A DNA stretch of 64,000 nt from positions 1,488,001 to 1,552,000 of the forward strand of contig NC_019792.1 in assembly GCF_000230715.2 (NCBI RefSeq), written 5' to 3'. The DNA is from Natronobacterium gregoryi SP2. Lineage in GTDB: Archaea > Halobacteriota > Halobacteria > Halobacteriales > Natrialbaceae. Every line of letters begins with the position of its first letter. Position 1 is the first letter of the stretch. A program made the position numbers and the translations under genes. A model generated the notes under the pieces. That model made no database searches, was not told where the DNA came from, and saw nothing but the letters and a program-made list of their open reading frames with translations. Shown one piece after another: positions 29,791 to 34,629 of this stretch.

Positions 29791-29980
29791 TGGCGGAATG
29801 TGGCGGCGAGGACTGTTAAGGTCTGCGACCTGTGGAGTGGGATTCGCGAGACGCTCGAGGCGTACCATTCGCTATCGATCGGAAGCCGCTCGAGGAGGCT
29901 GTGGACTGCTCGAGTGATCGACTCTCTGCGCCGATACCCTCGAGCAGAATATAAAGCTCGAGTCTCTCGTCGTCGTGAAA
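29791..29980. other. Intergenic stretch before IS1595 copy A
   Basis: 190 bases between the TPR start and the first IS. It ends in GTCATACTA, the direct repeat of the IS at 29981-29989. No gene seen. Confidence 0.5.
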
Positions 29981-29989
29981 GTCATACTA

Positions 29990-30989
29990 CGCTCTTGTGA
30001 AGGACATTGTTGGTGAGTCAGAGAACAGTTCGAACGATGTCTTTCAGGGCTTTTCGACCGGGTTTGCGTAGGATTTTCCGACGAAATTCGAAGAGTCTGA
30101 GATACGTGGTGAGTTTGTCCTTCGAGATACCTCGATGCGGCGAGAGCCACCGTCGCGCCAGCGACGCGTGGCTCTCGCACGTATTCACGTGTACATCTCC
30201 ATCAACGTACTCTCCCTCGCCGTGAATAACCGCTTCTCGCTGGTACGTTTCGTCCGTCTCTAACGGGTCGTAGGCACGAAAGCCGTCGGTATAGACTGTC
30301 AGCGACTCCTCCTCGTGGGAATCGAGGAGGAGTCGCACAGCCGATTCGTCGGCGGATTTCGACGGGATGACGTATCGCTGATCGCTACCGCGATCAACGA
30401 GGACAAACACAGGTGGCTTGTCTTCGTCGTAGTTTCCTCTGCCACGTTTCGAGAGACCACGCGAGCGCGACTCCTGGTCGCGCTCGCGGCCTTTCTTTCC
30501 GGCAGAAACGTAGAACTCATCGATCTCGACGGGGCCAACGAGATCGAGCTGAGGCGCGTCGAGCGTTCTGGCGAAACGCTCGACGCGCCGGTGAAGCGAT
30601 CGGTAGGAGACGTCAATTTCAGCGTCTAACTGGCGGATACTCGTGTTGAATCGGAGCAACGAGTAGAACGCGAACAACAGCTTGTCAAGGCCGATCTTCG
30701 CGTGCGCGAAGATCGTGCCGGTCTTGTCGTTGAACGTGCGTCCACAATTTTTACAGCGATACCGCTGATACTCTCGATAGCTGCCGTACTTGATCACCGA
30801 TTCAGACTGGCAGCGCGGGCACTGGAGGCCCTCGCGCCAGCGAACCTGCTCCAGCAGGTTCGCGGCGCTCGCCTCTGAGCGAAACACTTCAACTGGGAAC
30901 ATAGTCGGGTGATGCTGACGCATCACCCTTGCCCGCTACGCTTTCACAGCGCCAGCTCTGTTCGACCAACAATCTGCTTCCGAAGAGCG
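29990..30989 (-). mobile_element. IS1595-family insertion sequence, copy A (1,000 bp)
   Basis: Ends are imperfect inverted repeats CGCTCTTGTGAAGGACATTG and (right, complement) CGCTCTTCGGAAGCAGATTG. Flanking direct repeat GTCATACTA at 29981-29989 and 30990-30998 (nine bases by this boundary). It contains one intact transposase gene reading leftwards. Its own direct repeats show it inserted independently of copy B. Confidence 0.92.
30018..30902 (-). CDS. IS1595-family transposase, copy A
   Basis: A 294-residue transposase, like copy B, so the start at 30902 (MFPVEVFRSE) is preferred to 30926. An N-terminal zinc ribbon (CPRCQSES ... CKNCGRTF) precedes an ISXO2-like DDE domain: VGPVEIDEFYVSAG, LTVYTDGFRAYDPL and NTCESHASLARRWLSPHRG. 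The two copies share about two thirds of residues by eye. Confidence 0.93.
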   Translation of the reverse strand: MFPVEVFRSEASAANLLEQVRWREGLQCPRCQSESVIKYGSYREYQRYRCKNCGRTFNDKTGTIFAHAKIGLDKLLFAFYSLLRFNTSIRQLDAEIDVSYRSLHRRVERFARTLDAPQLDLVGPVEIDEFYVSAGKKGRERDQESRSRGLSKRGRGNYDEDKPPVFVLVDRGSDQRYVIPSKSADESAVRLLLDSHEEESLTVYTDGFRAYDPLETDETYQREAVIHGEGEYVDGDVHVNTCESHASLARRWLSPHRGISKDKLTTYLRLFEFRRKILRKPGRKALKDIVRTVL

Positions 30990-30998
30990 GTCATACTA

Positions 30999-31114
30999 AA
31001 ACAGAAATTGCATACCATCACCATTCGACGGTGTTGACAAGCGAGCCGCCGCCGAGCAGCGGGAAGTCAGAACGGAATAAGTCACTCCCGCTGTGATCCG
31101 TCTCGCCCGACGCT
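30999..31114. other. Short spacer between two IS1595 elements
   Basis: About 116 bases of sequence between the two elements' direct repeats. No gene seen. Its left side begins where copy A's repeat ends and its right side precedes the repeat TAATCGTT of copy B. Confidence 0.5.
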
Positions 31115-31122
31115 TAATCGTT

Positions 31123-32123
31123 CGCTCTTCTGTAGGAGATTGTTGATACCGCTCAGCTGTCGCTGTAGAATCGAAGAGAGCAAGGACACCGCGTTAGCGG
31201 TGTCCGTTAGGCATGATCCCGCTAGATGTGTTTGGGTCGGAATCGGTCGCAGCGGACCTGTTAGAGCAGGTTCGCTGGCGTAACGGTGTTACTTGCCCTC
31301 GCTGCCGTTCTGACCTGACGGTCAAGAACGGCAGCTATGGGCACTTTCAGCGCTATCTCTGTAAGAATTGCGACCGCACGTTCAACGACAAGACCGGCAC
31401 AATCTTCGCCCATTCGAAAGTCGCACTCAGAAAGTGGCTGTTCTCGATTTACGCGTTTCTCCGGTTTAACACGAGTCTTCGTCAACTTCAGATAGAGATC
31501 GACGTCCAGTACAAAACGATCTACCAGCGCGTCGAGCGCTTCACGAAGGCGCTTGATGCACCTTCGCTTGACCTTGTCGGACCGGTCGAAATCGATGAAG
31601 TCTACGTTTCTGCAGGGCTGAAAGGCCGCGAGCGCGACCAAGAGTCGCGCTCGCGTGGCCTGTCCACGCGTGGGCGAGGAACGTACGAGCAGGACAAACC
31701 GCCGGTGTTTACGATCGTCGATCGTGGCACCGGCGACCGATACGTGATCCCAGCGAAATCAGCCGACGAATCGACGATTCGGCTCCTTCTCGAAAACCGT
31801 CAGAAGGAGCCACTGACCGTCTATACTGACGGATTTCGTGCCTACGATCCACTGGCCGAGGACGACGCATTCGACCGCGAATACGTCGTCCACGGCGACG
31901 GCGAATACGCCAACGAAAACGTACACGTCAACACCTGCGAGAGCCACGGATCGCTGCTGCGACCGTGGCTCTCGCCTCATCGAGGCATCTCAAAAGACAA
32001 GCTCACACAGTATCTCCGAGCGTTCCAACTTCGACGAAAGATACTGCGGAAACCAGGGAGAGAAGCGCTCAAACACGCTATCAAAGCGACGCTATGAGAT
32101 CAACAAAGTGCTACACAAGAGCG
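31123..32123 (+). mobile_element. IS1595-family insertion sequence, copy B (1,001 bp)
   Basis: Starts CGCTCTTCTGTAGGAGATTG and ends with the complement of CGCTCTTGTGTAGCACTTTG. Flanking 8-bp direct repeat TAATCGTT at 31115-31122 and 32124-32131. Single intact transposase. It lies 133 bases from copy A, in the opposite orientation. Confidence 0.93.
31213..32097 (+). CDS. IS1595-family transposase, copy B
   Basis: A 294-residue transposase starting MIPLDVFGSESVAADLLEQ. The zinc ribbon is CPRCRSDL ... CKNCDRTF, and the DDE core is VGPVEIDEVYVSAG, LTVYTDGFRAYDPL and NTCESHGSLLRPWLSPHRG. Reading frame intact; its product could act on both IS copies' similar ends. Confidence 0.94.
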   Translation: MIPLDVFGSESVAADLLEQVRWRNGVTCPRCRSDLTVKNGSYGHFQRYLCKNCDRTFNDKTGTIFAHSKVALRKWLFSIYAFLRFNTSLRQLQIEIDVQYKTIYQRVERFTKALDAPSLDLVGPVEIDEVYVSAGLKGRERDQESRSRGLSTRGRGTYEQDKPPVFTIVDRGTGDRYVIPAKSADESTIRLLLENRQKEPLTVYTDGFRAYDPLAEDDAFDREYVVHGDGEYANENVHVNTCESHGSLLRPWLSPHRGISKDKLTQYLRAFQLRRKILRKPGREALKHAIKATL

Positions 32124-32129
32124 TAATCG

Positions 32130-32882
32130 TTAATATTCCTCAAGTCCCGCTTGTTCGTCCCCATCGGTAGTCCCTATGGCCGCATTTTTATCCACTTTCC
32201 GGTCAGACATTCCGTCTGTTAGCTTTCCAATTGGGGGAACGGAATCGGAGACACCGTCATGCTCCACGACTACGACCTCAATAATCCCGTTCTCTACCTC
32301 GTGAGCAAGTGATTCCCAAATTACAAAGTATGGCACAAGTTCACGGTAGTTCCCGATACGGTCGGTCAGGTAGTAGTACAAATCTCTGTTCGGTAAAACG
32401 ATTAAACCACCATGTATTATTCCAGACATCAATCCGAGTGTGATTCGGTTCAATGATCGGTGACTCGAGGAAATATTTCCAGTCTCCCATTCCGCTACGA
32501 TCAAGCCCTGCTCTCTCTCCATCTCGACCTCCTTCATGGCGTCAAACCATGGACTGGATAGGAAATCCAGCGGGTCGTCGTAGTACTCCCCCATTTTTTC
32601 CAGCGTCTCGTCAAGTATCCCGCGTTCTTCAAGCAGGCCGCTCAACCACTTCCGGCCCGTAGACTCCCAATTCGACTTCTTGTCCAAATTCGCCTCGAAC
32701 TGTTCGGTTATTGGGTTGACTCCGTTCTCATTTTCCTCTGGATATACGAGAAATTCATCGTTCCTCGGTGGCCAGTACACGTCTCTAACGGAGTCTAATA
32801 CGTCCTCACGACCCTCACTCCAAATGGCCGTGTTGGGAAATTCTCCTTCGTCGAGAATTGTGTACGTATGGCTAATTTCCAT
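32130..32882 (-). CDS. Putative type II restriction endonuclease (BamHI/BglII-like)
   Basis: A 250-residue protein starting MEISHTYTILDEGEF. Asp114 (WFDAMKEVE) and Glu131-x-Glu133 (LIVAEWETGN) match the D..ExE/ExQ active-site pattern of BamHI and BglII-like nucleases. The segment after it (RITLGLMSGIIHGGLIVLP, then LTDRIGNYRELVPYF) resembles the BglII-family helix-strand-helix order (LP-x-KEL ... GISYYEGEL). GC content is well below its neighbours. It is on the same strand as a wHTH gene (overlap 11 bp) and divergent from a methyltransferase, so this is most likely the restriction half of a type II system. The match is by motif, not by alignment. Confidence 0.72.
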   Translation of the reverse strand: MEISHTYTILDEGEFPNTAIWSEGREDVLDSVRDVYWPPRNDEFLVYPEENENGVNPITEQFEANLDKKSNWESTGRKWLSGLLEERGILDETLEKMGEYYDDPLDFLSSPWFDAMKEVEMEREQGLIVAEWETGNISSSHRSLNRITLGLMSGIIHGGLIVLPNRDLYYYLTDRIGNYRELVPYFVIWESLAHEVENGIIEVVVVEHDGVSDSVPPIGKLTDGMSDRKVDKNAAIGTTDGDEQAGLEEY

Positions 32883-33105
32883 TGTTGAAGAACCAACGAT
32901 AATTCCCAGCCACTTTCTCCGAGTCGATCCGGCCCTCTGCGGCAAGTTCCGTCAGACGCCGGTATGCAAGGTCAGACGAGCAACCTACGTCGTCGGAGAC
33001 GTCCGAAGTCGAGCAAGATCCCAGCTTTTTAACTGCACGGATGAAATCCTCATCAGAGTATTCCTGGCTGAACCGACCACTGTACTCGTCCCGGTCGCGG
33101 TCCAT
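32872..33105 (-). CDS. Winged-helix regulator of the restriction gene
   Basis: A 77-residue protein starting MDRDRDEYSGRF. Residues about 18-75 fit a winged helix: FIRAVKKLGSCSTSDVSDDV, then SSDLAYRRLTELAAEGRI and the wing DSEKVAGNYRWFF. Its 3' end overlaps the start of the endonuclease gene by 11 bases, so they are translated together. It probably plays the role of a C (controller) protein that delays or limits endonuclease synthesis. That role is inferred from position, not sequence identity. Confidence 0.72.
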   Translation of the reverse strand: MDRDRDEYSGRFSQEYSDEDFIRAVKKLGSCSTSDVSDDVGCSSDLAYRRLTELAAEGRIDSEKVAGNYRWFFNNGN

Positions 33106-33130
33106 TGATTAACGAATGTCTTCAACCAGC

Positions 33131-33138
33131 AAATATTT
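33131..33138 (-). promoter_or_regulatory. TATA-like element for the wHTH-endonuclease operon
   Basis: AAATATTT lies 26-33 bases before the minus-strand ATG at 33105, the spacing for an archaeal TATA box with a leaderless transcript. It is in the divergent gap with the methyltransferase promoter. Confidence 0.55.
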
Positions 33139-33174
33139 GTACCGAAGAAGCCCACCTTTCTCTGGATAGTGAAA

Positions 33175-33184
33175 GGTTTATAAG
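33175..33184 (+). promoter_or_regulatory. TATA-like element for the methyltransferase side
   Basis: GGTTTATAAG lies 27-36 bases before a plus-strand ATG at 33211. It would place the start of transcription next to that ATG, giving a leaderless short frame before the methyltransferase. Confidence 0.55.
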
Positions 33185-33210
33185 TGACTGTGCTACAATA
33201 CAGAATTACA

Positions 33211-33273
33211 ATGGGCAACACTTCTATATTCACAAACAGACGGCCCAACCAAGAAAGAGAGGCTCACGTATGA
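33211..33273 (+). CDS. Possible 20-codon leader peptide before the methyltransferase
   Basis: ATG at 33211, reading MGNTSIFTNRRPNQEREAHV and a TGA at 33271-33273. The stop overlaps the methyltransferase ATG (33270) as ATGA. No start exists in the methyltransferase frame between the TATA box and 33270, so translation would need to reinitiate or be coupled. It could regulate methyltransferase yield; conservation has not been checked. Confidence 0.35.
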   Translation: MGNTSIFTNRRPNQEREAHV

Positions 33274-34532
33274 CAGGATTATTATTCCGCTCGGCGGGCG
33301 ACGTCGTGAGTCAATTACGTCGTCAGCGAGAACTCACAGATAACGAACTAGCAAAAGAGGCGGGACTCCGCGTCGGTACACTCCGAGAGATAGAAACAGG
33401 CGTTCCGCCTACTGACGATCAAATCGAGAAACTCGGCGAAGCTCTCAACGTATCTCCAGACGCCATTCGACTCGTCGCCGGCGAGTTTCCGGAGGAACTT
33501 CATTCGGAACTCTTGGAAAATCCCAACCGGGCATTGAATGTTCTCCAAAATGCGTTTGATACTGAACCCACCACTTCGGAGGAAGAAGTTAGTTTACCCG
33601 ATCCCGTTTTCACCACCGGCCAGGGTAAACTCTACAATGCCGATTGCCGCGAGATCCTTTCCGAACTTGAAGACGAATCGTTTGATCTGATCTTTGCCGA
33701 TCCTCCTTTCAATCTGGATAAGGACTACGGCGAAAAAAACGGGGACGACCTAGCCGAGGACGAGTATCTCCGTTGGTCTACCGAGTGGATCGACCAAGCG
33801 GTTGATCTACTCAAACCTGGTGGTGCGTTTTTCCTCTACAACCTCCCGACCTGGAACACCCATTTCGCCCACTATATCTCTCGCCGACTCAACCTACGAC
33901 ATTGGATTGCCGTCGACATCAAGTTTGGTCTTCCCATCCCAAATCGACTATATCCTTCGCACTATTCACTTCTCTACTTCGTTAAGGGGGATTCGCCGAA
34001 AACCTTTGATCCCGACCGTCTACCCATAGATACCTGCCCCCATTGTGGAGGTGAACAAAACGACTACGGTGGTTATAAATCGAAAATGAATCCTAAGGGC
34101 GTGAACCTGACCGATGTGTGGGACGACGTACCACCTGTTCGGCACAACAAGTATCTCAATCGGGATGCCAATCAGCTTAGCCTAAAGCTCCTGCACCGAG
34201 TAATCGGAATGGCCTCTGAGGAAGGGGATCGTGTGCTAGATCCCTTTGGTGGAGCAGGCACAACCTACGCCGCCGCCGAGATCATGGGCCGCGAATGGGT
34301 AGGAACAGAACTTCACGATTGCTCTCCGATTATCGAACGATTTGAGAATCTCGACCAAGATAGAGAATACATAGCGGAAATCGAGGAAGATTTGAACCTA
34401 CTGTTCACTGAAGACGCTCTGAAAAATCGAATGAAGTACAAGGACGAGTTCAATTTCAATTTCGACGACTACGACCTCAGCGAAAGCATGAACGGATCTG
34501 TTCAACAGAGACTTGGCTCCTACGAGGAGTGA
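33270..34532 (+). CDS. XRE-domain-fused type II DNA methyltransferase (N6-adenine or N4-cytosine, beta class)
   Basis: A 420-residue protein starting MTGLLFRSAGDVV. Residues about 10-70 are an XRE/Cro-like helix-turn-helix (LRRQRELTDNELAKEAGL, then VGTLREIETGV). The methylase part has motif IV DPPF at 144-147 before motif I DPFGGAGTT at 324-332, the order of the beta class. CPHCGG at 256-261 supplies part of a possible zinc site in the target-recognition region. The fusion suggests the enzyme represses its own or neighbouring promoters. Low GC compared with the core genome suggests recent transfer. Confidence 0.85.
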   Translation: MTGLLFRSAGDVVSQLRRQRELTDNELAKEAGLRVGTLREIETGVPPTDDQIEKLGEALNVSPDAIRLVAGEFPEELHSELLENPNRALNVLQNAFDTEPTTSEEEVSLPDPVFTTGQGKLYNADCREILSELEDESFDLIFADPPFNLDKDYGEKNGDDLAEDEYLRWSTEWIDQAVDLLKPGGAFFLYNLPTWNTHFAHYISRRLNLRHWIAVDIKFGLPIPNRLYPSHYSLLYFVKGDSPKTFDPDRLPIDTCPHCGGEQNDYGGYKSKMNPKGVNLTDVWDDVPPVRHNKYLNRDANQLSLKLLHRVIGMASEEGDRVLDPFGGAGTTYAAAEIMGREWVGTELHDCSPIIERFENLDQDREYIAEIEEDLNLLFTEDALKNRMKYKDEFNFNFDDYDLSESMNGSVQQRLGSYEE

Positions 34533-34629
34533 CGGAAGAGCGGTATCGCAGGATAATACGGCCGACGCGCGGCCACACAACACCGTCGATATGAATGATC
34601 AACCACTGGAATTGTGACCTCTGGAACGG

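Follow-up and report, generated by a model that had tools for sequence, protein, structure and literature searches.

The segment from 32130 to 34532 of the window (the whole 64,000-nucleotide stretch of DNA that was analysed) is a type IIP restriction-modification (R-M) system. In our best explanation, to which we give a probability of roughly 0.7, it is of the BamHI kind, cuts GGATCC, was acquired as a small insert and has had its XRE controller replaced by a haloarchaeal winged-helix protein of 77 amino acids. What appears to be new is the controller, an archaeal winged helix in place of the XRE C protein of a BamHI-type system. This novelty is provisional, the literature covered being open-access papers; the main text of two surveys of archaeal or haloarchaeal R-M systems mentions neither GGATCC systems nor controllers. 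Computation shows the protein families, the fold and the architecture, the conservation of the operator, the gene context and the avoidance of the target site.

Architecture and genomic setting of the locus

The nuclease gene R (32130–32882, minus strand) encodes 250 amino acids. It is preceded on the same strand by the gene of the candidate winged-helix controller (32872–33105, 77 amino acids), which overlaps the start of R by 11 nucleotides (ATGGAAATTAG) and ends within the first codons of R. The methyltransferase gene M (33270–34532, plus strand, 420 amino acids) diverges from this pair across a spacer of 164 nucleotides. The order is that of BamHI itself (bamHIR, bamHIC, bamHIM), in which R comes after the gene of a small regulator and a long-form beta-class methyltransferase gene diverges from both, the difference being that the BamHI regulator is an XRE C protein and the one in the window a winged helix. 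More generally, C-protein-controlled type II systems have a small regulator before R and coupled to it, and M as a unit of its own, as is also the case here. The initial annotation had described three open reading frames, the residues D114 and E131-x-E133 and the domains, all of which were recovered in place, the second motif as E131-W-E133. Its reading of the locus as a real R-M system is supported, as is the translational link it drew between winged helix and R. The low GC content it reported was also confirmed, at 0.489 for R, 0.538 for the winged-helix gene and 0.503 for M, versus 0.625 for the window.

The system is contained in a 4.8-kb segment (29831–34628) that is absent from congeners, which have 24–27 nucleotides (G320 and G084) or 388 unrelated nucleotides (G166) at this place. 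By this sequence comparison the R-M system is an insert, foreign relative to the congeners, as the initial annotation had supposed. Two elements of the IS1595 family are present, both on the left side of the R-M unit only: IS-A (29990–30989, minus strand), flanked by the target duplication GTCATACTA at 29981–29989 and 30990–30998, and IS-B (31123–32123, plus strand), flanked by TAATCGTT at 31115–31122 and 32124–32131. Because each has its own target duplication, they are independent later insertions and not carriers of the R-M unit, so the earlier argument that adjacent IS elements mark a mobile defence unit does not hold. A composite, IS-borne transposon was rejected for the same reason and for the one-sided position of both elements. 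The insertion point of IS-B is precisely the R stop codon, and R remained intact. At another archaeal locus (L007), an open reading frame that reads like a tyrosine integrase adjoins the BamHI-type system.

The nuclease

R matches Pfam family PF02923 with an E-value of 4e-36 and 124.6 bits, exceeding the curated cut-off of 22.8, and PADLOC REase_II with 2e-44. In the PDB it matches OkrAI (3.5e-34) and BamHI (1e-20). Homology of this strength goes well past anything chance would give. An AlphaFold2 model calculated with 45 sequences has a pLDDT of 87.8; in a Foldseek search with this model, OkrAI is the best match (TM-score 0.91 by target length, E-value 8e-19) and BamHI the second (0.80–0.86 by target length), with BstYI and BglII far weaker. 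A PD-(D/E)xK fold had been set beforehand as the structural test, and the match to OkrAI shows the model to have it. By these matches R is a nuclease of the BamHI-type PD-(D/E)xK fold, in the BamHI/OkrAI branch. Of the earlier description as BamHI/BglII-like, the first half is retained, as BamHI/OkrAI-type; an affinity to BglII was rejected, the modelled fold being closer to BamHI and OkrAI.

Residues D114, E131 and E133, which correspond to the active-site D and E-x-E, are invariant across the alignment. The base-contacting residues of BamHI are N116, S118, R122, D154 and R155; at their positions R has N136, S138, R142, D174 and R175, all invariant in a 14-sequence alignment. Column 75 of R, which probably matches the fourth active-site residue of BamHI, E77, contains a glutamate in at least 90% of the relatives and a threonine (Thr75) in R, with E73 nearby; an insertion beside the column makes the alignment uncertain here. 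Compared to BamHI, R also has about 20–25 extra residues before D114, and its host is an archaeon. With OkrAI and BamHI it shares nuclease family, fold and predicted target, GGATCC, a prediction backed by genome-wide avoidance of this sequence (see below). R is rare, being found in two of 391 Halobacteria genomes. A search of 50,697 phage records for a phage-borne R gave zero matches; relatives are present on seven IMG/VR contigs.

The methyltransferase

The assigned start of M is supported by its orthologues, all of which begin with MTGLLFRSAG. Motif IV (DPPF, residues 144–147) precedes motif I (DPFGGAGT), the order of the beta class (PMC2890505). The product of M.BamHI is N4-methylcytosine (PMC2890505), and the base methylated by M would be m4C or m6A. 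M matches Pfam N6_N4_Mtase (1e-37) and PADLOC MTase_II (2e-131) and is the kind of methyltransferase that bacterial BamHI-type loci have: it is 45–46% identical, over about 365–390 residues, to the methyltransferases of BamHI-type loci of Desulfocapsa and of a Geobacillus plasmid, both with the same divergent layout as in the window.

The XRE domain attributed to M was confirmed (Pfam HTH_3, 2.5e-9, residues 15–65, encoded by 33312–33464 on the plus strand). The N-terminal stretch aligns in most of 26 long-form methyltransferases, a set with five archaeal rows, two of them (L002 and L008) from the same genome; Pfam detects the XRE domain in only five rows of the set. An equivalent stretch occurs in the majority of the long-form homologues from bacteria, so by this alignment the N-terminal helix-turn-helix is not a special addition at this locus. 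The earlier proposal of two separate regulators is supported in part: the winged helix comes with a conserved operator and a conserved gene context, and the N-terminal domain of M is a putative second regulator.

Avoidance of GGATCC

The expected number of each hexamer was derived from counts of 5-mers and 4-mers in a 400-kb sample taken evenly along the 3.79-Mb chromosome. In this sample GGATCC occurs 14 times versus 107 expected, and its ratio of 0.13 is the lowest among all 64 palindromic hexamers. GATC itself is not depleted, nor are most neighbours containing it, including GGATCG, GGATCT and CGATCC. Evidently, a BamHI cousin has shaped the host genome, from which GGATCC is nearly purged. 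In the other archaeal carriers the ratio is 0.05 (G345), 0.08 (G396, from 85 kb only) and 1.09 (G395, where avoidance is absent), while five relatives in which the search for R found none have ratios of 0.53–0.87. Read most simply, GGATCC has long been restricted in three of the carriers, whereas in the fourth the system arrived recently or was misbinned. At L008 (5001–5786), R has an insertion of about 90–100 nucleotides containing in-frame stops; M is intact and the ratio in the same genome is 0.05. GGCGCC is also strongly avoided (24 observed versus 131 expected in the own genome, 0 versus 79 in G345 and 11 versus 45 in G166), which suggests a further restriction pressure of wider distribution.

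The candidate winged-helix controller and its candidate operator

In bacterial and viral-contig relatives, the position of the winged-helix gene is taken by an XRE-type protein, with HTH_3 detected in 51 of 55. All four archaeal BamHI-type loci (the window, L007, L008 and L009; L002 and L008 being the same MAG) have the 77-residue winged helix, which, by alignment with one another, overlaps R by about 11 nucleotides in each. HTH_3 was not matched in the 77-residue protein by Pfam, and its winged-helix fold comes from a model, in which residues 44–57 form the recognition helix. At or in this helix, S43 and D45–L51 are invariant between BamHI-linked and Dam-linked proteins. The wider family is present in 287 of 391 Halobacteria genomes, in many gene contexts. 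The ten closest genes in these genomes (E < 1e-32) all adjoin a DNA methyltransferase gene: two of BamHI type, seven of Dam type (D12; two called by Pfam scan and the other five by the same LKWAGGK start) and one of N6_N4 type. A family-wide search for further members of this subclade added none.

The spacer between the divergent genes contains a candidate operator, ACCTTTCTCTGGATAGTGAAAGGT (33154–33177), located 48 nucleotides from the winged-helix start and agreeing at 11 of 12 core positions with the palindrome CCnTTCA-n8-TGAAnGG; 9 of 20,000 spacer shuffles score as high. This palindrome or a close variant is present in the spacers of all 12 winged-helix–methyltransferase loci examined (for example CCGTTCAATGTATATTGAACGG in L106), at 45–56 nucleotides from the winged-helix start except in L107, where the start is uncertain and the site exact. 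The exact palindrome occurs only 30 times in the 391 genomes, and seven of these sites precede one of the ten genes of the subclade; two of the remaining three genes have a site with one mismatch and the third a site with a 9-nucleotide centre. Near members of other subclades of the family the palindrome is absent. An independent member examined afterwards, on a viral contig (L318:2193-3118, IMG/VR UViG_2639762639), has the winged helix, a D12 methyltransferase in divergent orientation and the operator in its exact form; the module thus travels on viruses or proviruses too. Across unrelated methyltransferase contexts the site goes with the winged helix rather than with the methyltransferase, an argument for binding of the site by the winged helix. 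Ten subclade genes beside methyltransferases, with the same palindrome in the shared spacer, imply a winged-helix controller of haloarchaeal type that has an operator of its own.

Both promoters were read from the sequence. On the minus strand, a TATA-like box (CAAATATTTG, 33130–33139) lies 25–34 nucleotides upstream of the winged-helix start and would fit a leaderless transcript of the winged-helix and R genes. The palindrome is upstream of this box, and in the window and three relatives this arrangement is found with the palindrome 48–49 nucleotides from the start. On the plus strand, M has a TATA-like box, TTTATAA (33177–33183), and the BRE expected beside it coincides with the right arm of the palindrome.

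Control of the system

In C-protein logic, M is made early, the controller builds up and R is delayed. The genes of C.BamHI-type XRE proteins resemble the winged-helix gene in being small, just upstream of R and overlapping it, and in the conserved site that lies between them and M. The winged helix differs in its unrelated fold, in the single palindrome in place of tandem C boxes, and in an operator that is common to unrelated R-M families. In our preferred explanation, the winged helix has replaced the XRE controller of a BamHI-type pair and, probably as a dimer, would bind the palindrome CCnTTCA-n8-TGAAnGG that separates the promoters. On one side this would cover the expected BRE of M, and on the other it would lie directly upstream of the BRE and TATA box of the controller's own leaderless transcript. 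After entry, M would be produced at once; the winged helix would accumulate, then restrain M and allow or boost its own transcript, and R would be translated by coupling through the 11-nucleotide overlap, so that cutting lags protection. Binding by the winged helix, its sign at each promoter and the delay of R are what we infer; by analogy with C proteins, the geometry of the palindrome would suit repression of M together with activation, or at least tolerance, of the winged-helix and R genes. Four observations count against the explanation: the lack of avoidance in G395, the mismatch in the operator of the window, the threonine at the column that probably matches E77, and the lack of a neighbouring nuclease at most Dam-type loci with this winged helix (see below).

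The main rival to C-like control is repression of both promoters. The winged helix would be a plain autoregulatory repressor without activation, and any lag of R would have no other source than translational coupling or M's own XRE domain. We hold this to be possible, if somewhat doubtful. A palindrome between divergent archaeal promoters, adjoining the BRE and TATA boxes of both, suits dual repression, and the bacterial regulator RptR represses R-M genes (PMC12255303); against it, the site at 48–49 nucleotides from the winged-helix start, upstream of the TATA-like box, is where activators can act. RptR is the nearest recent parallel to the winged-helix controller, being a small regulator other than a C protein, with its own conserved palindrome and genetically tied to R-M genes, although it is bacterial, belongs to type I systems and has TAGCTA as its site (PMC12255303).

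An unlikely rival makes the XRE domain of M the true controller and the winged helix incidental. M does have such a domain, and M.SsoII is reported to regulate its own system through its N-terminal region (PMC3978073); yet the same operator occurs at D12 loci in which the winged helix accompanies a methyltransferase lacking an XRE domain, and it is absent near other winged-helix subclades. Least probable of all is a relic, in which R is now inactive and the avoidance stems from past activity or from another GGATCC enzyme. In its favour, avoidance is slow to build, yet the locus retains a foreign GC content in an insert missing from congeners, and in G345 the avoidance persists with a broken R. 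Against it, none of the three reading frames in the window is disrupted, the catalytic and recognition residues are conserved, the genome has one copy each of R and full-length M, and IS-B spared the stop codon of R.

A proposed controller shared by unrelated systems

In one further locus (L110:1361-3671), the same winged helix and operator accompany a divergent Dam-type (D12) methyltransferase gene, with a DpnII nuclease gene (PF04556, 4.5e-40) downstream on the same strand as the winged helix. Neither enzyme is related to those of BamHI, and the locus is apparently a second R-M system under the same kind of controller. The winged helix may control methyltransferases rather than R, since most Dam-type loci show no adjacent nuclease. 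On balance, we favour the view that Haloarchaea own a class of R-M controller, a winged helix with a conserved operator, used in unrelated R-M or solitary-methyltransferase loci (BamHI, DpnII and Dam types) and replacing XRE C proteins in the BamHI-type system. This suggests a BamHI-type enzyme pair rewired with a native archaeal switch, one switch serving unrelated systems. C-protein incompatibility groups are known in bacteria, in which systems cross-regulate or exclude one another; if the view is true, several archaeal systems could do likewise within a cell, because they share one operator. The timing of R-M genes on entry into archaea, with their TBP and TFB promoters, is poorly known, and the locus offers a candidate that can be tested: its protein and its 24-bp site are defined, and its cutting specificity is predicted.

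Genes of other winged-helix subclades are repeatedly found next to two short haloarchaeal genes that form a conserved pair (L117, L119, L121, L124–L126, L135 and L136), one LGEGAATCQVCG-like and the other LYVGLEIDLLAPGDG...VTDRHHASADRYEADD-like; one LGEGAATCQVCG-like gene was scanned against Pfam and matched no family. At L132:1291-2093 (reversed), a winged-helix gene of another subclade overlaps by four nucleotides an open reading frame that reads like a PIN toxin. An antitoxin origin of the winged helix would be one reading of this arrangement, which is one among the many contexts of the wider family. The gene has a palindrome of its own, CCATACA-n8-TGTATGG, in a comparable position, which would fit a joint change of operator and recognition helix.
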